Shown in pieces: positions 11,663-18,842 of a DNA stretch of 42,208 nucleotides (position 1 is its first letter; each line of letters opens with the position of its first letter). The stretch spans positions 1 through 42,208 of the IMG/VR virus record IMGVR_UViG_3300033552_000021; one strand, 5' to 3'. Position numbers and translations under genes: made by a program. Below the pieces are notes generated by a model. It did no database searches, was not told the DNA's origin, and was given only the letters and a program-made list of their open reading frames with translations. The DNA comes from a virus.

Positions 11663-13183
11663 TCAGTTTGATATTGGACTATTTAGGAAGTCGTCTATGT
11701 TTGATTCAGTTTCAGTGGCTGGCATAACGCCGCAAGCCATAGCCAGCGCGACCATGCCGTCAATCCGGCCACGCGCGTGTTTCTTGTCGAACTTACGCGC
11801 GCCTGAATCGCCAATCACTTTGGCGTTTTTTGCGCACATTTCCAAAATCGGATGATTGCCGTGTTGAAGTTGTTTGCCTAGAAGTTTGGCCTCCAAAGCT
11901 CTAAGCGCTGGCGTCATACTCAAAGTGCCTTGCCCATACGGCACAAACTTTTCTAGTTCACTGTCGCTGAAATTAGCTTTTACAAGCCACGGCTTTAAAT
12001 GTTCAAACAAAGCGCGATCAAAAGCGATACGCTGTACATCACAGCGATCAAATAAGCCGCGCATTGCATCTGCCACAAATTCATATTCAATTGCCCTGCC
12101 TGGTGTCGTGTTCAAGTGGCCTTGTTTGGCCCACAAGTCATACGGCACGCGATCTTTACGGGACTTTTCTGCCAAGCCTTCAGCCGGTAACCAAAACTCC
12201 GAATGCACGCCGCCGTCATCCGTCACTAAAACAAGCGCTGTTAGGTCGTTGACGCTAGACAGGTCTAAGCCGCCCCATACCTGTTTACCCTCAATAGGGC
12301 CGCATTCACCGCCGTTGTCGCGCCATACGTTCTGGCTCACGAACGGGCTGACAGCTTCGACGCGCTGATTCAAGATCAGATTACGGAACTCGGGTTCGTT
12401 CGCTGGCATTTCCATTGCTGACTTGCACTGCTTTTCAATGTCAGCAACGCTGCGAAACTTACCCATTGCGGGGTTTGATGCCGCCCACGCTTTCTTGTCA
12501 TCCAGAGCGCAATCTTTTGGCGCTTCGTACACATGGCAAACCACACGCGGATCAGGCGCTGCGCGTTGCGCGTCAATCCATGTCGAAAACATATCCGCGT
12601 CCGTAGGCGCCTGGGTTGAAATCGCAATCAGCAGCGGGCTGGTGTATGCACCCTGCGCGCTAGTGATTGCGGTCACAAATTTATCTGTCGGCCCTACTAC
12701 CTGGCCCACCTCGTCCAAAATTGCCAGAATTGGTGAAAGTCCGTGTGCCGTCTTACCTTCTGCTGATAGCGCGCGGTATAAAACATTCTTACTCAAGCCG
12801 ATTAACCGCTTACCGCTGGGCAGGATGCGGACCAGCTTCGTCAAGATAGGCGACATTTCAATCATTTTGCGCGCCAGTTCAAAGACGACCGCCGCCTGCT
12901 CTTTTGACTGCGCACCGCTGACGATCTGGCTGTTTTGCACCGCTTCAGGCCCGCAGATATGCGCCAGCAGAATTGCCGCGATCAGCGCCGTCTTGCCGTT
13001 TTTGCGTCCAATGGACAGGTAGGCAGTGTGGGTTCCTATCGGGTTGTCGTAAATTTCCTTGATAAAGCGAACCTGAAACGGCTCAAGCTTTATCGGCTTG
13101 CCTATGTGCTGCCCTTCAGGAGAAAGCACGTACTTGTGGATAAACGCGACGACCTTTTCGCCGCGTGTAAGCTTTTTAGCCAT
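11663..13183 (-). CDS. terL: Terminase large subunit
   Basis: 506 residues. The N-terminal ATPase has Walker A at about 57-66 (SIGRKNGKTA) and Walker B with the DE pair at about 157-158 (ILAILDEVG). The C-terminal nuclease begins around VWGGLDLSSVNDLTAL, with Asp about 307 in the first metal-binding motif. It pumps DNA into the procapsid and cuts the concatemer. The start ATG shares its A with the small-subunit stop (TAATG). The sequence type (IGRKNGK, then DEVGQVVG) fits the HK97/Terminase_1 group; DNA ends in that group are usually cos, which the adjacent HNH gene also favours. Confidence 0.95.
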   Translation of the reverse strand: MAKKLTRGEKVVAFIHKYVLSPEGQHIGKPIKLEPFQVRFIKEIYDNPIGTHTAYLSIGRKNGKTALIAAILLAHICGPEAVQNSQIVSGAQSKEQAAVVFELARKMIEMSPILTKLVRILPSGKRLIGLSKNVLYRALSAEGKTAHGLSPILAILDEVGQVVGPTDKFVTAITSAQGAYTSPLLIAISTQAPTDADMFSTWIDAQRAAPDPRVVCHVYEAPKDCALDDKKAWAASNPAMGKFRSVADIEKQCKSAMEMPANEPEFRNLILNQRVEAVSPFVSQNVWRDNGGECGPIEGKQVWGGLDLSSVNDLTALVLVTDDGGVHSEFWLPAEGLAEKSRKDRVPYDLWAKQGHLNTTPGRAIEYEFVADAMRGLFDRCDVQRIAFDRALFEHLKPWLVKANFSDSELEKFVPYGQGTLSMTPALRALEAKLLGKQLQHGNHPILEMCAKNAKVIGDSGARKFDKKHARGRIDGMVALAMACGVMPATETESNIDDFLNSPISN

Positions 13184-13644
13184 TACGCCAGTAATTCGTC
13201 GTCTTCCAGTTCTTCGCGCAACTTTCGAGACTGTCGTTCAATCTTTCGCCCCGGCGCTTCATCGCGGGCTGCACCAGCGACCCGGCCACCCATGCGCAAA
13301 GTCCGCATCAAAGCCATTTCACGACGAGCGAACTGCTCCAGCACTGAAACGCGGGGGTTAACGACCGCCGTGCCTTTGTCGTTCTTTATTACAGTTCCCT
13401 CAACATCAAGCGCGGACTGTTCGTTTTCGATGTCATGCAGGCATCTGGCGAGCTGTGCAGCAACCACTAAATCAGTCTCAGTCCACTCGTCCCTCGCGCG
13501 TGCGCGCACAACGCCCTGCCAAAACACCTGATCGCCGCCACGCAAATTGACGTGCGCAGGTACGGCAATCTCGTCTTTTGAGGCGTTGACCATAGCCCGA
13601 ACTGCACTGGCAGCGGAGTCAGCGCGGTTTCTTTTGGTGGCCAT
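13183..13644 (-). CDS. terS: Terminase small subunit
   Basis: 153 residues. The N-terminus has the ADSAASAVRAMVNASKDEIAVP stretch, the middle is a helix pair (ETDLVVAAQLARCLHDIE), then NPRVSVLEQFARREMALMRTLRM, and a basic-acidic tail RKIERQSRKLREELEDDE. Position before and overlap with terL, size and helical composition support the small subunit that recognises the packaging site. The gene starts 107 nt after the HNH gene. Confidence 0.85.
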   Translation of the reverse strand: MATKRNRADSAASAVRAMVNASKDEIAVPAHVNLRGGDQVFWQGVVRARARDEWTETDLVVAAQLARCLHDIENEQSALDVEGTVIKNDKGTAVVNPRVSVLEQFARREMALMRTLRMGGRVAGAARDEAPGRKIERQSRKLREELEDDELLA

Positions 13645-14902: not shown

Positions 14903-15277
14903 GCGTTCCTCCAGAACGTTTGATGGTTAGAAGGTCGGAGGTGTTATCAGCACTGTCCGGCCTTCGTCTATTTTAGCTCATCAGTAGCGAATTACCTACC
15001 CGCTCGGTAGCGCCTGCTTTGGTGTCCAGCACCTTCACGCGGTTGGTGTTGAGTACGGCCAATAGGGGTTTTAACGTCTTCAGTGCCATGCGCGCCCTTC
15101 GGGTTTAGCCTTGCGGCCAGGGCCGACCGTTCCCGCCGTGTGGATGGTGCGATGCCATTCGGAGATAACAGGATTTAGCCGTCCTGCTCGCGCCCACACT
15201 GCGCGATGACTCGGCAATAGGTGCGGGACGCGAATCTAAGCGTATAGCTGTGATTGTTGATTCGGCCCGCTAAACAG
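14903..15277. other. Mostly noncoding stretch upstream of the late genes; possible cos region
   Basis: Apart from the 38-codon remnant I see no gene in this stretch. It lies between the leader-RNA terminator and the HNH/terminase genes, where cos sites of HK97-like phages usually are. Several GC-rich inverted pieces occur around 15100-15240, but I cannot identify the cut site. Confidence 0.35.
14973..15089 (-). pseudogene. Truncated N-terminus of an HNH-type gene
   Basis: A 38-codon frame with an AAGGG site upstream reads MALKTLKPLLAVLNTNRV then KVLDTKAGATERVGNSLLMS and a stop. The segment LKTLKP then NTNRVKVLDTKAGATERV matches my memory of N-termini of small HNH nucleases beside phage terminases, which normally run on into a CxxC/HNH domain. 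Here it ends 71 nt before the homing-type HNH gene. I infer a remnant broken by that insertion; a short functional peptide cannot be excluded. Confidence 0.5.
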
Positions 15278-15312
15278 AAAAGCCCGCTAAGGAGTAAACC
15301 TTGCGGGCTTTA
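15278..15312 (-). terminator. Strong intrinsic terminator of the late leader RNA
   Basis: AAAGCCCGC and GCGGGCTTT pair perfectly, and TAAGG/CCTT extends the stem around a short loop. The minus strand continues with TTTTCTG. The plus strand also has a partial U tract (TTTAAATT), so it may work in both directions. It lies about 190-220 nt after the predicted promoter at 15505-15532. Confidence 0.85.
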
Positions 15313-15318
15313 AATTAA

Positions 15319-15384
15319 TTTGATGGCACGGTGTCGAACCTTGCTAGCGCAGGCCGTTAGACCAGGCTTTCCACTATCATCAAA
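15319..15384 (-). other. tRNA-like fold within the leader RNA
   Basis: The minus-strand ends TTTGATG and CATCAAA form a perfect 7-bp acceptor-like stem. A TTCGACA loop (plus 15332-15338) is flanked by CAAGG/CCGTG with one mismatch, like a T arm, and CCTGGTCTAACGG resembles a D arm. Only about 34 nt lie between acceptor and T arm, so a normal anticodon arm does not fit. It may be a decayed tRNA or a tRNA mimic. Confidence 0.3.
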
Positions 15385-15504
15385 ACGGCTGCTGACTAGC
15401 TCTCTAATGGTTCGCGTAACCACCTTACCTTACGGCCCTTGGGGTTTCACTAATCAACATGCGTTTTGAATGTGGTTCTGCAATTGCTTACGCCCCACAT
15501 CCAT

Positions 15505-15532
15505 ATATTATGCTAATTAATGCGGTTGTCAA
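15505..15532 (-). promoter_or_regulatory. Late promoter candidate P1 (sigma70 type)
   Basis: On the minus strand TTGACA (15532-15527), a 16-nt spacer and TAATAT (15510-15505). The -35 box is consensus and the -10 box is close to it. It faces the leader RNA and, past the terminator, all late genes. Confidence 0.75.
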
Positions 15533-15545
15533 CGCTTTTTTGTAG

Positions 15546-15722
15546 TTATTTCTTAGCGTTGTCAATCGCATTGCGCACCCATTGCGCACCACCCAGCAAC
15601 TTGACTTTTGCTAAAAGCTCCGGCGACATGACAACTTGCAGCACTGGAGACTTGCCTGCACCTTGAAGGCTCTTGCGCCCCTGCCCACGCTCTGCAGGCG
15701 GGCGCTTGGCAGGTATGTTCAC
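15546..15722 (-). CDS. Small DNA-binding-like protein
   Basis: A 58-residue frame starting at GTG 15722 inside a GTGA overlap with the preceding gene. It reads VNIPAKRPPAERGQGRKS at the start, then SPVLQVVMSPELLAKVKLL and GGAQWVRNAIDNAKK. The second half (strand, then two helices with LGGAQWVRNAID) resembles short ribbon-helix-helix-like phage and plasmid proteins. The gene lies directly in front of promoter P1, so a regulatory role is possible. Confidence 0.7.
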   Translation of the reverse strand: MNIPAKRPPAERGQGRKSLQGAGKSPVLQVVMSPELLAKVKLLGGAQWVRNAIDNAKK

Positions 15723-16039
15723 GCCTTAAAATCCCAGCAATTCTTGCCAATGGACTCTGAAAGCTGCTGCCAGTTGTCGTAGCTGTCGCCATCAACAAGC
15801 GCGATACCATTGCCATAAGAGTCTTGAAATACAGTGAATCCGGTGGATGCAGTAACAGCCTCGCAAAGTGCGTCGGTGTCGATTTCGATAGCTGTTGCAT
15901 CATCGCCAAATTGAGCTGAAGCATCGGCGTAATCTTTAAAGCCTGCATCGCTTGCGTATGCGTCGAGGGCTTCGGTTGCCGTACCCGCAACATAGCAACC
16001 CATGTCGCTGTCGTTTACGCTAATTGTGAAAGTTGCCAT
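15719..16039 (-). CDS. Small acidic protein, unknown
   Basis: 106 residues from ATG 16039 with GGAGAT upstream. The sequence is very acidic and rich in Asp, Ala, Ser (GYKD-like acidic turns, AQFGDDATAIEIDTDAL, DGDSYDNWQQL), with no membrane or HTH segment. It is transcribed from P2 (16088-16114) and coupled to the next gene. An acidic DNA-mimic or inhibitor is conceivable but is only an inference from charge. Confidence 0.7.
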   Translation of the reverse strand: MATFTISVNDSDMGCYVAGTATEALDAYASDAGFKDYADASAQFGDDATAIEIDTDALCEAVTASTGFTVFQDSYGNGIALVDGDSYDNWQQLSESIGKNCWDFKA

Positions 16040-16087
16040 TTTGATCTCCACTTAGGTTGGCGTGATTGCTTCCCCTTGAGTGATAGT

Positions 16088-16114
16088 ATATTAGCTAATC
16101 AATCATCAGTGCAA
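16088..16114 (-). promoter_or_regulatory. Promoter candidate P2
   Basis: The minus strand has TTGCAC (16114-16109), then TAATAT (16093-16088) after 15 nt or TATACT (16090-16085) after 18 nt. The segment ATTGATTAGC-TAATATA closely matches ATTAATTAGCA-TAATATA of P1. It lies about 50 nt before the ATG at 16039. Confidence 0.6.
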
Positions 16115-16147
16115 TGATTAAATAATATTTTTTCATAGGACAAACCC

Positions 16148-16528
16148 TTACATTACCCCCGCAGCGCTTAACCTCGTCATCAGTGCGCTCTTAGCCGCCA
16201 TCAGTATTGCAGCGCGTTCCATTGGGTCAGCCGGTAGCCTTGCGCTAGTCCAGACGCTGACACCTGTGTAAAGGTTGCGCGCTTTGATCTGTATAGCTGT
16301 TCGGTGGCTTGGCTCTAGCTCAGAAATGTGAAAATCCAAAGCTTTCATCGTTGAATTGTGCTTTGCGTTATCTAATACTTCGTCGGCGTCCTGCCACTGC
16401 CTGCTGCTTTTAACGTCGGTGAACATGGCGCAGCTACCACTTTGGGATACGTGCCTGAAGTTGCTGGCCCAACAATGCCAATCCGTCAAAAGAGCGTCAA
16501 AAATGTTGTCAATGTCGTTGCGCATCAT
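16148..16528 (-). CDS. Candidate late gene regulator, Q-like by position
   Basis: 126 residues from ATG 16528, with AAAGGG 6-9 nt upstream; the longer frame to 16600 would overlap the previous gene. Motifs: IFDALLTDWHCWASN near the N-terminus, SSRQWQDADEVLDNA, then LEPSHRTAIQIKARNLYTGVSVW and a helix ending in RLSAAGVM. Similar proteins sit at the end of early operons of many proteobacterial prophages, immediately before the late promoter. It is the last gene of the leftward early operon, followed by P2, P1 and a terminated leader, which is the place of lambda Q. Function is inferred from position, not from a recognised Q domain. Confidence 0.6.
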   Translation of the reverse strand: MMRNDIDNIFDALLTDWHCWASNFRHVSQSGSCAMFTDVKSSRQWQDADEVLDNAKHNSTMKALDFHISELEPSHRTAIQIKARNLYTGVSVWTSARLPADPMERAAILMAAKSALMTRLSAAGVM

Positions 16529-16878: not shown

Positions 16879-17055
16879 CTATATCCATTGATAGCACTTG
16901 CGCGCCATGCAATCGGCCAGAAACTTTGTCCAGATGCGAGCCGTCCTAATGCTTTTGTAGCGCTGGCCGTCATTCGTTAAATCCAGCCCTTTAGCCTGCG
17001 CCTCGAAATCTGCGTTTAGTTGGATGATGGTCATTTGCTGCCTTTGGTTAGTCAT
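16879..17055 (-). CDS. Small early protein, unknown
   Basis: 58 residues from ATG 17055, which overlaps the ninB stop (ATGA) and has GGAG 9 nt upstream. It reads MTNQRQQMTIIQLNADF, then DLTNDGQRYKSIRTARIWT and KFLADCMARKCYQWI. Likely helical; no known family recognised. Coupling to ninB suggests a DNA metabolism context. Confidence 0.65.
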   Translation of the reverse strand: MTNQRQQMTIIQLNADFEAQAKGLDLTNDGQRYKSIRTARIWTKFLADCMARKCYQWI

Positions 17056-17465
17056 GCTGCTGCGCGCTCCATAGGTTGACTTTTGTAAACAGGCTCCACA
17101 CCACTTTGTGCGGCCATAGCCACGAGAAATTCCATCCACTCGCTAAAAACCCGCTTGCCCATTTGGCTAGTGCGTTGTGGCAGCATGATTACCTTGTTGT
17201 CAAATGCAGCCATGCGGGTTTCACCATTCCAGCAGCCGGTTAAAACGTCTTTCCAATCGTCGTCCGTGGCCTTTTGCATGACGCCGTTTATGCAAAGCTG
17301 TTTTTGCGCTGCGAACCCGGCCAGATACGGCCATTGCGCCGCGTTTTGATCCAGCGTGCGGTTAGGCTCGCTGACCACCACAGCAAAGCCTTCAGGCGCG
17401 TCCTTTACGGCTTGCAGGGCGTTTGAGCGGGCTTGGGTGTGCACCAGGATAAATGTGCGCTTCAT
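17052..17465 (-). CDS. ninB: NinB/Orf-type recombination protein
   Basis: 137 residues from ATG 17465. The protein has RTFILVHTQARSNALQAVKDAP, then SEPNRTLDQNAAQWPYLAGFA, the family's strongest stretch, and a later KRVFSEWMEFLVAMAAQSGV. Lambda NinB (Orf) is an ssDNA-binding mediator that helps load the recombination system. It overlaps the stop of the preceding 44-residue gene (ATGA). The nearby ninG gene keeps the lambda nin-region association. Confidence 0.9.
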   Translation of the reverse strand: MKRTFILVHTQARSNALQAVKDAPEGFAVVVSEPNRTLDQNAAQWPYLAGFAAQKQLCINGVMQKATDDDWKDVLTGCWNGETRMAAFDNKVIMLPQRTSQMGKRVFSEWMEFLVAMAAQSGVEPVYKSQPMERAAA

Positions 17466-17596
17466 GCTTTCAACTCCAAAAGCAGCCAATCGTCATAGGC
17501 ATCTTTTGGTTTGTACCCAATACCAGTAACAGTTTTACCCGGCTCACTAAAACGGCAGTACCACAGGCCACGGCGTTTGAAAATATGCGGTTTCAT
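17462..17596 (-). CDS. 44-residue basic protein between ninG and ninB
   Basis: Reads MKPHIFKRRGLWYCRFSE, then PGKTVTGIGYKPKDAYDDW and LLLELKA, from ATG 17596. Both ends overlap neighbours by ATGA, which supports it as real. The pattern (aromatic strand LWYCRF, then a helix with AYDDW) is common in small phage proteins of unknown role. Confidence 0.7.
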   Translation of the reverse strand: MKPHIFKRRGLWYCRFSEPGKTVTGIGYKPKDAYDDWLLLELKA

Positions 17597-18165
17597 GCTG
17601 CTGCTTTCAGTGCTTTTGTTTTTGCGGCGTAGTCGGTCTTAATCGCTTGAAGTTGTGGAATCGTGTATTTTTTTGGTTCGTGGTGGCTTTCTAGCCAAGC
17701 TACAAACTCAGGCCCGATCTTGGCTATCAGATTAAGGCGGTACTTGGCGATATTGCCGCTTAAATGGTTATTACATGGGGCGCATTGCTTGTGTACGTTT
17801 AGCGCCTCAAACCGTAATTCCGGCCTTGCACCTGTGCTTAAAAAATGTCCGGCATGGTATTGCCCTTGATGATGGCGCTGGCACGATATGCACGGCTGGT
17901 CGTCATCGCGTAGGCGTATCCATGCATTGAATGCGGTCTGTGCTTCACGCGCCCACTGTGATTTACTTTTCAGTTTGTCCAGCTTGGCTTTTGTCTCGCG
18001 CTTGTCCTTCACCGCTGCAATCTTTTTAGCTTTGCCGGTGACTGACCGGGCAAACGTCATTGCGCAAAAGTTAGAACATACCTTTGCGGCCATGCGTTGC
18101 GGTGTAAATTTGGTCTTGCACACTGCGCACGTTTTGGGCTTGGGTGGTTTGGCTTGCAGGGTCAT
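17593..18165 (-). CDS. ninG: NinG/Rap-type junction nuclease
   Basis: 190 residues. N-terminal zinc finger CAVCKTKF then VCSNFC, a long lysine-rich helix, the CISCQRHHQGQYHAGHFLSTG segment and CAPCNNHLSGN, all characteristic of NinG. Lambda NinG (Rap) resolves recombination intermediates and D-loops. The start ATG overlaps the stop of the Mom-like gene. Length and motif order look complete. Confidence 0.93.
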   Translation of the reverse strand: MTLQAKPPKPKTCAVCKTKFTPQRMAAKVCSNFCAMTFARSVTGKAKKIAAVKDKRETKAKLDKLKSKSQWAREAQTAFNAWIRLRDDDQPCISCQRHHQGQYHAGHFLSTGARPELRFEALNVHKQCAPCNNHLSGNIAKYRLNLIAKIGPEFVAWLESHHEPKKYTIPQLQAIKTDYAAKTKALKAAA

Positions 18166-18842
18166 GCTATTGGCCCTAAAAACAAAAGTGATTGCGTAGG
18201 TATGACACCCCCTGCGTCATAACGTATTGAATCGCCTTTTGGGTATGCTTCTAAACCATACTTAAGATCAGCAAAAAGCCTTTTTTTATCGCTTTTACTG
18301 CCGCTGAAAAAAACATACCTGTGTTTTCTTGATCTGTTTTTTAGCTTAAATTTATCGCCAAATTTTTCTCGCATAAATTCAACACGGTTTTTTTGACCTC
18401 GTGACATATCCGCTATCGTTGCGCCATGCAAATGCTCTAAACCTTCAACCGTCCAATCCGTACGCTTTGCGCTTAACCCTGTATAGACAAAATTTGCAGC
18501 CTGATAAACATAACCAACATGACCAACGCCAATATCAGCATAAGAAACAACAATCGAAGGTTTCGGAAGTAATCGCAAAGACCTGCCAATCAAAAAGCTT
18601 GCAAAGTTTTCACCGCTTTCACAGCACAAACGGTTTAATTCCAAAACCAAACCTTCGTTCTTTTTTCCACAAATGCCAGACCGAAGCGGAGAGCTTGACG
18701 GAACTCCATAAGTACAAATTCCTACTAACCGATCATTAACATACAAGCCAAAAGCATGAGATATTGGGCAAAGCCTTTTTGCATAATGTTTTTTCAATAG
18801 CCACGGCTCGCATTCGCTATGCAATATCGGGAGAACTCTCAC
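18162..18842 (-). CDS. mom: Mom-like DNA adenine modification protein
   Basis: 226 residues, close to the 231 of phage Mu Mom. The family run is visible: HYAKRLCPISHAFGLYVND, RLVGICTYGVPSSSPL, VLELNRLCCESGENFASFL, then RSLRLLPKPSIVVSYADI and GHVGYVYQAANFVYTGLS. Mu Mom is a GNAT-fold protein that converts adenine to N6-carbamoylmethyladenine and protects phage DNA from many restriction enzymes. Whether this relative makes the same base is unknown. Its gene is in the early operon with replication and recombination genes, 4 nt after a zinc-finger gene. I see no adjacent com-type translational activator. Confidence 0.82.
   Translation of the reverse strand: MRVLPILHSECEPWLLKKHYAKRLCPISHAFGLYVNDRLVGICTYGVPSSSPLRSGICGKKNEGLVLELNRLCCESGENFASFLIGRSLRLLPKPSIVVSYADIGVGHVGYVYQAANFVYTGLSAKRTDWTVEGLEHLHGATIADMSRGQKNRVEFMREKFGDKFKLKNRSRKHRYVFFSGSKSDKKRLFADLKYGLEAYPKGDSIRYDAGGVIPTQSLLFLGPIA

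Follow-up and report, generated by a model that had tools for sequence, protein, structure and literature searches.

A putative relative of the lambda Q switch with a conserved start-proximal signature in a 42,208-base virus record

Q-type antiterminators control the late genes of many temperate phages, and to our knowledge the characterised Q-type families are only a few, unrelated or remotely related. The locus described here lies in a virus record of 42,208 bases (the window, by which the whole stretch is meant). It raises the question of whether a 126-aa protein, about 40% shorter than lambda Q, and the promoter and terminator downstream of its gene form such a switch, as an earlier note on this DNA had proposed.

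Anatomy of the late control region

The minus strand was read in the direction of transcription. NinG/Rap, NinB/Orf, an 81-aa ORF, the 126-aa gene and ORFs of 106 and 58 aa are followed by the late promoter, a non-coding stretch, the terminator, endonuclease genes and the small and large terminase subunits (Table 1). This order of nin genes, Q, late promoter, terminator and late genes is that of the lambda module, as is a strong promoter with an intrinsic terminator within a short leader. The earlier note had placed the late genes downstream of the terminator on the same strand, and endonuclease, TerS and TerL genes do follow there. Its description of the 126-aa gene as the last early gene does not hold, since the two small ORFs precede the promoter. 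A Mom-like DNA modification gene (phrog_1384, E 1.5e-48) lies in the early region at 18162-18842, directly upstream of NinG.

The late promoter that had been read at 15505-15532 is present and is the best among four promoter-like sites in 5 kb. With 5.0 such sites expected, their number is not above chance, so that single-sequence promoter evidence alone is weak; it is the sequence comparison between phages, and not the consensus match, that makes this promoter convincing. Its position predicts a +1 at 15497, in agreement with the 5' end that had been expected there, and a leader of ~222 nt extending to about 15275. A second promoter had also been claimed, for which there is at best the weak candidate of Table 1, probably serving the 106-aa ORF downstream.

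The leader had been described as a gene-poor stretch of about 200 nt. The ORF list indeed contains no minus-strand ORF of at least 50 aa there, but the stretch is strongly structured rather than empty: the entire leader folds with a z of −3.4, and a hairpin stands at its 5' end. The strong terminator noted at 15278-15312 was recovered at 15311-15278, with the sequence AAAGCCCGCAAGG-TTTACT-CCTTAGCGGGCTTTT. A pattern scanner listed no minus-strand terminator and missed this one, most likely because of its interrupted stem. Comparison of the leader with Rfam families gave only sub-threshold matches, which were driven by the terminator, and no direct match to the leader DNA was found in annotated phages. 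Right behind the terminator, at about 15270-15220, lies a hairpin-like block GCGGGnCG...CCCGCACC, which is also seen at the equivalent place in seven related loci (L055, L058, L059, L060, L063, L074 and L110; L numbers denote loci of relatives). It is a candidate cos site or RNA element ahead of the terminase genes.

The endonuclease genes have a history of their own. An N-terminal HNH fragment at 15089-14973, similar to L111 (78% over 37 aa), is cut short where an endonuclease VII-like gene begins (14902-14084), and the HNH gene that comes after it (14135-13752) is complete and belongs to another subfamily. Because the HNH subfamily of the fragment differs from that of the downstream ORF, we take the fragment for a truncated relic and not an exon; a homing-endonuclease invasion of the first late gene is probable. 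A hammerhead or group I intron in this region looked suggestive by eye and was discarded, having no Rfam match. A structured leader stands upstream of two different endonuclease genes, at about 14975-14925 in the window and about 7095-7165 in L056. Its pattern is TAAAATAGACGA ... GTGCTGATA.CAC ... CTCTAACC, with the variant TTCTAACC in the window and matching stem changes seen by eye, and it is possibly an RNA element of a mobile endonuclease.

Table 1. Coordinates of features in and around the late control region of the window
Feature	Position	Strand	Remarks
NinG/Rap (context)	17593..18165	-	phrog_171, E 2e-87
NinB/Orf (context)	17052..17489	-	PF05772, E 2e-17
Q-like antiterminator candidate, 126 aa	16148..16528	-	54 distinct relatives; no Pfam family
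Weak candidate promoter TTGCAC-18-TATACT	16085..16114	-	8/12 by our count; absent from scanner list
Small accessory ORF, 106 aa	15719..16039	-	ORF list; no family match
Small ORF, 58 aa	15546..15722	-	ORF list; no family match
Late promoter TTGACA-16-TAATAT	15505..15532	-	10/12 consensus; boxes of relatives equally distant from signature
5' hairpin of leader RNA	15467..15503	-	−16.5 kcal/mol, z −5.45
Start-proximal signature, +1 to +23, TGGGGCGTAAGCAATTGCAGAAC	15475..15497	-	conserved while promoter spacer diverges
−10-like hexamer CAGAAC, candidate sigma-dependent pause element, about +18	15475..15480	-	best TATAAT-match offset
E1, long imperfect stem TCAAAACGCATGTTGATT / AGTCAGCAGCCGTTTTGATG	15378..15469	-	z −4.05
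E2, tRNA-like segment closed by TTTGATG/CATCAAA	15319..15384	-	5' arm shared with E1
Intrinsic terminator (tR'-like)	15278..15311	-	−20.5 kcal/mol, z −4.88
Terminase small subunit, first clear late gene	13183..13644	-	phrog_5601, E 5e-43
Terminase large subunit	11663..13183	-	PF20441, E 2e-24; phrog_9, E 6e-119

The conserved unit and its protein

Viral contigs yielded relatives of the 126-aa protein (9 in one search and 55 in another), as did bacterial genomes of Polaromonas, Variovorax and Macromonas, with more from a later search. Those distinct from each other and from the window's own protein (Table 1) are 28-98% identical to it. In about 30 relatives a −35/−10 promoter, or its −10 end, lies 9-65 nt past the stop codon, and is followed by a conserved block GGnnGGCATAGGTGCCTCCAAAATTT and then in most cases by an intrinsic terminator; in several the −35 box sits within the 3' end of the Q-like gene itself. 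At these promoters the −35 and −10 boxes are near consensus, with 16-18 nt between them. From +1 to +23 the family signature reads GGnnGGCATAGGTGCCTCCAAAAT, and the terminator follows ~50 nt from the start in most relatives, while the window's subgroup (L055-L058, L064) carries a divergent version of the block, GTGGGGCGTAAGCAATTGCAGAAC, read by eye. A terminator was present within 150 nt of the signature start in 34/42 sites (median 49.5 nt), some of these sites having been located by matrix scan, as compared with 152/2000 random segments of the same loci (7.6%). Several of the 8 exceptions have a tRNA or other insert, or a 5-bp stem missed by our rule.

The linkage between gene and signature was assessed with a weight matrix that covers the block and the promoter, run on 20 loci excluded from its construction. 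Fourteen of these carry the gene and fall outside the window's own subgroup, and in 11 of the 14 (L070, L076, L077, L081, L082, L088, L094, L101, L106, L129 and L131) the top site in the whole locus lay downstream of the gene and on its strand, even where other genes intervene. The scan gave no convincing signature site in L117 and L119, and in the window it did not rank the window's own divergent block first. Among independent bacterial genomes the complete promoter-signature-terminator unit was found in L126 and L127, which were afterwards added to the alignment behind the matrix, and a terminator stands at the equivalent place in L128. The anatomy, its conservation and the linkage of protein and signature are thus observed directly.

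What lies between gene and promoter is not conserved, relatives having other ORFs or none in this gap, which is a variable cargo site. Unrelated small ORFs occupy it in the window (15546-16039) and in L055, L056, L057, L058, L076, L077 and L094.

The protein itself had been described as an antiterminator without recognised Q similarity. That holds for ordinary family searches only: no family match to the 126-aa protein was found in Pfam or NCBIfam, and none of 55 members matched the curated profile PF06530 at E up to 1. Sequence searches gave no direct match to solved structures, or, for four family proteins, to annotated phages. In favour of a Q relationship, 4/55 members matched phrog_79, 'anti-termination protein Q-like' (best E 0.0039). 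The description does not hold at the level of profiles. When the family profile was aligned with hhalign to five Q proteins of the PF06530 group, taken from one and the same bacterial family, the score was 28.0 (probability 30-35%, E about 5e-4), against a mean of 12.3 and a maximum of 19.5 for 200 column shuffles and 12.2 for the reversed profile. The similarity is limited to the N-terminal half (LxxWxxW ... GYPS), the C-terminal half having a distinct conserved motif, ARN..TG..VW.S.RLP. This comparison directly supports a remote but significant profile kinship with Q proteins.

In the structure models a long first helix, which carries the conserved tryptophans, is predicted together with a disordered loop and with three helices alignable to sigma region 4. 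Comparison with known Q structures, which the earlier note had suggested, gave a divided answer. For model 1 the top VIA-align row was the Q21 loading complex (6p18_Q, Z 7.8, rmsd 7.5), the alignment covering 110 residues in the range 2-125. For model 2, the better one, sigma region 4 led (Z 7.8) as the closest fold for residues 46-126, and Q21 was not listed; a Z below 8 is no proof of kinship and may reflect a common helical arrangement. The predicted fold thus resembles Q21 and sigma region 4 with moderate scores. As the curated-profile match failed, the Z scores stayed below 8 and the models disagree on Q21, we do not file the protein under PF06530 or the 21Q family.

The lambda-like reading of the earlier note is supported by these results. 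Since dozens of phages carry the Q-like gene along with the promoter-signature-terminator unit, in a lambda-like gene order and with remote Q kinship and a Q21/sigma-region-4-like predicted fold on the side of the protein, we put the probability that the region is a late-gene switch of the Q/pR'/tR' type at about 0.85. As judged from sequence, it very probably represents a hitherto undescribed relative of the Q switch of lambda.

Recognition, pausing and the leader RNA

The position of the conserved bases suggests where the protein may act. Between phages with 80-98% identical proteins the first 28 nt from +1 are 96-100% identical, whereas the −35/−10 spacer may fall to 53-65% identity even where the proteins are 95-98% identical (window versus L055 and L056; L113 versus L115). 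Because the spacer diverges while the first transcribed bases are conserved, the recognition site of the Q-like protein probably lies after the transcription start. This comparison, which addresses conservation and not binding, argues against a Q binding element between −35 and −10, and the known DNA site of 21Q or AlpA was for that reason not assumed here. One pair departs from the pattern: the proteins of L100 and L101 are 95% identical and their signatures rather different, which suggests relaxed recognition or recent recombination.

A candidate sigma-dependent pause element follows at about +18. Across the initially transcribed regions at 27 sites, this offset gave the best TATAAT match (3.56/6), with A at position 2 in 25/27; the A-rich hexamer there is YAAAAW in the family and CAGAAC in the window. 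A −10-like pause element within the signature loop was also considered, and was weaker than this block.

The signature is transcribed and its block is a partial dyad, and an N- or put-like antiterminator could therefore read a nascent RNA hairpin of +1 to +20 where a Q-style protein would load from DNA. Signature halves from one and the same phage pair more stably (mean −6.9 kcal/mol) than combinations of halves from different phages (−5.7 kcal/mol; 0/1000 permutations), and the covariation score was 0.280 against 0.222 after shuffling, with the true register above all slid ones, although related sequences inflate tests of this kind. The 5' hairpin of the window (Table 1) points in the same direction. 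However, admitting G-U pairs did not make the excess pairing any clearer (z 1.65, against z 3.0 for Watson-Crick pairs alone), so that a DNA dyad serves equally well. Moreover, pairing registers vary between loci, many cells are unpaired (68.5% paired), and the protein is Q-like and not arginine-rich. The dyad data therefore fit an RNA hairpin and a DNA inverted repeat alike, and a protein that acts through RNA seems to us an unlikely, if the least unlikely, alternative. A strict one-register RNA hairpin was rejected as a description of all loci, since the registers differ.

The leader elements E1 and E2 (Table 1) are found in part of the family. The arms of E1 recur directly behind the late-promoter signature in related phages, its interior being variable. 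The leader element, in which the near-constant arms TCAAAACGCATGYTGATT and AGTCAGCAGCCGTTTTGRTG enclose 29-88 nt of variable interior, is carried by the window, L055, L056 (two copies), L064, L070-L072, L158 and L159. It is also listed for L160, and L157, which is the same as L056, has a leader of about 650 nt with the two copies. The closing end pair is either TTTGATG/CATCAAA or TTTGGTG/CACCAAA, depending on the phage. In 8/10 copies a stretch of 6-9 downstream bases, which in several copies adjoins the terminator on its 5' side, also has its complement in the end of the second arm, so that one strand has two mutually exclusive partners.

In some copies the segment between these partners is tRNA-like: E2 of the window includes a T-arm-like GGTTCGACACC at 15340-15330 (GGGTTCGACTCCC in L159). 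A tRNA gene with full cloverleaf was rejected for the window's leader, as ARAGORN finds none, and the interior of E2 folds no better than shuffles (z 0.24). Real tRNA genes do occur in or just past the terminated leader of some relatives: Phe in L069 (3066-3150), Gln in L063 (5629-5704, the same as L098 4629-4704) and Gly in L116 (4495-4568). The element may be an RNA switch, an RNA-processing signal or a set of tRNA-gene relics; of these three, relics retained for processing seem to us likeliest. As a tentative extension of the Q-type reading, the protein would load at a site after the start, perhaps read as RNA, and in the subgroup a three-strand switch or tRNA-like processing would tune read-through; in such a switch the shared strand would choose between two partners, the arm upstream of it (E1) and the end of the tRNA-like segment near the terminator (E2).

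A strongly structured leader, with tRNA genes at that place in L069 and L063/L098, could alternatively be a stand-alone small or tRNA-like RNA, insulated by the terminator, with the late genes transcribed from elsewhere and the 126-aa protein in another role. Only sequence is visible to the methods used, which leaves room for this account; yet most relatives have a leader of ~50 nt and no extra RNA while the protein-linked unit persists, and the protein is Q-like, which makes it very improbable. Least probable of all is that the 126-aa protein is an activator of the late promoter and not an antiterminator: its sigma-region-4-like predicted part would suit DNA binding, but boxes this close to consensus do not require an activator, and the distance to the terminator that follows is nearly fixed.

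Proposed mechanism and comparison with known systems

For the Q-type switch we infer the following course. The late promoter is probably always on, and would make a leader of ~220 nt ending at the terminator. As the 126-aa protein builds up, it would be loaded on RNA polymerase while the first part of the leader is being made, with the +1 to +23 signature, and probably a pause at that place, as its guides. The loaded polymerase would ignore the leader terminator and later ones, and the terminase and structural genes would be transcribed. Antitermination may work as it does for 21Q and AlpA, through a nozzle in the RNA exit channel.

The locus adds a compact, probably Q-type family, found in phages and prophages whose named hosts are Burkholderiales; its DNA signature is recognisable and locates the late promoter without experiment. 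The tRNA-like leader element raises the separate question of the role of phage late leader RNAs.

Lambda shares with the window the Nin genes, Q, a constitutive promoter, a terminated leader of ~200 nt (the lambda 6S RNA) and the late genes that follow. In contrast to lambda, the conserved element lies elsewhere, and the leader RNA is unrelated to 6S. Also close are the PF06530/phrog_79 proteins, such as VG_p50 of Variovorax phage VarioGold (PMC9658991, OP296522), with which the family shares the remote similarity of its N-terminal half and a gene position before an HNH endonuclease gene, while its C-terminal motif and the failed PF06530 match set it apart. The VarioGold Q was considered as a family member and rejected, since it groups with PF06530 and is only a marginal match here.

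AlpA of Pseudomonas aeruginosa controls lysis genes through a binding element between −35 and −10 (PMC9371919). Promoter, intrinsic terminator and, as proposed here, processive antiterminator logic are alike, but terminase genes take the place of lysis genes, and AlpA's site is upstream of the start. The phage 21 Q protein resembles sigma region 4 and has its H1 helix packed on the sigma-region-4-like part; a ring formed by its flexible loops sits in the RNA exit channel, and tryptophans of H1 make contact with RNA polymerase (PMC6606751). Our protein is likewise small, with a predicted H1, flexible loop and sigma-region-4-like part, and a terminator follows the late promoter in both phages, although its sequence has no direct match to a solved structure. 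The DNA site of 21Q consists of TGAGCA direct repeats with centres near −21 and −13, before the start (PMC6606751), whereas here conservation is seen from +1 to +23 and is lacking in the upstream spacer. The pause-like block at about +18 is also later than in 21 or AlpA. Loading after the start, if true, would test the generality of the pause-and-load model, in which the binding element lies upstream and the pause element downstream.
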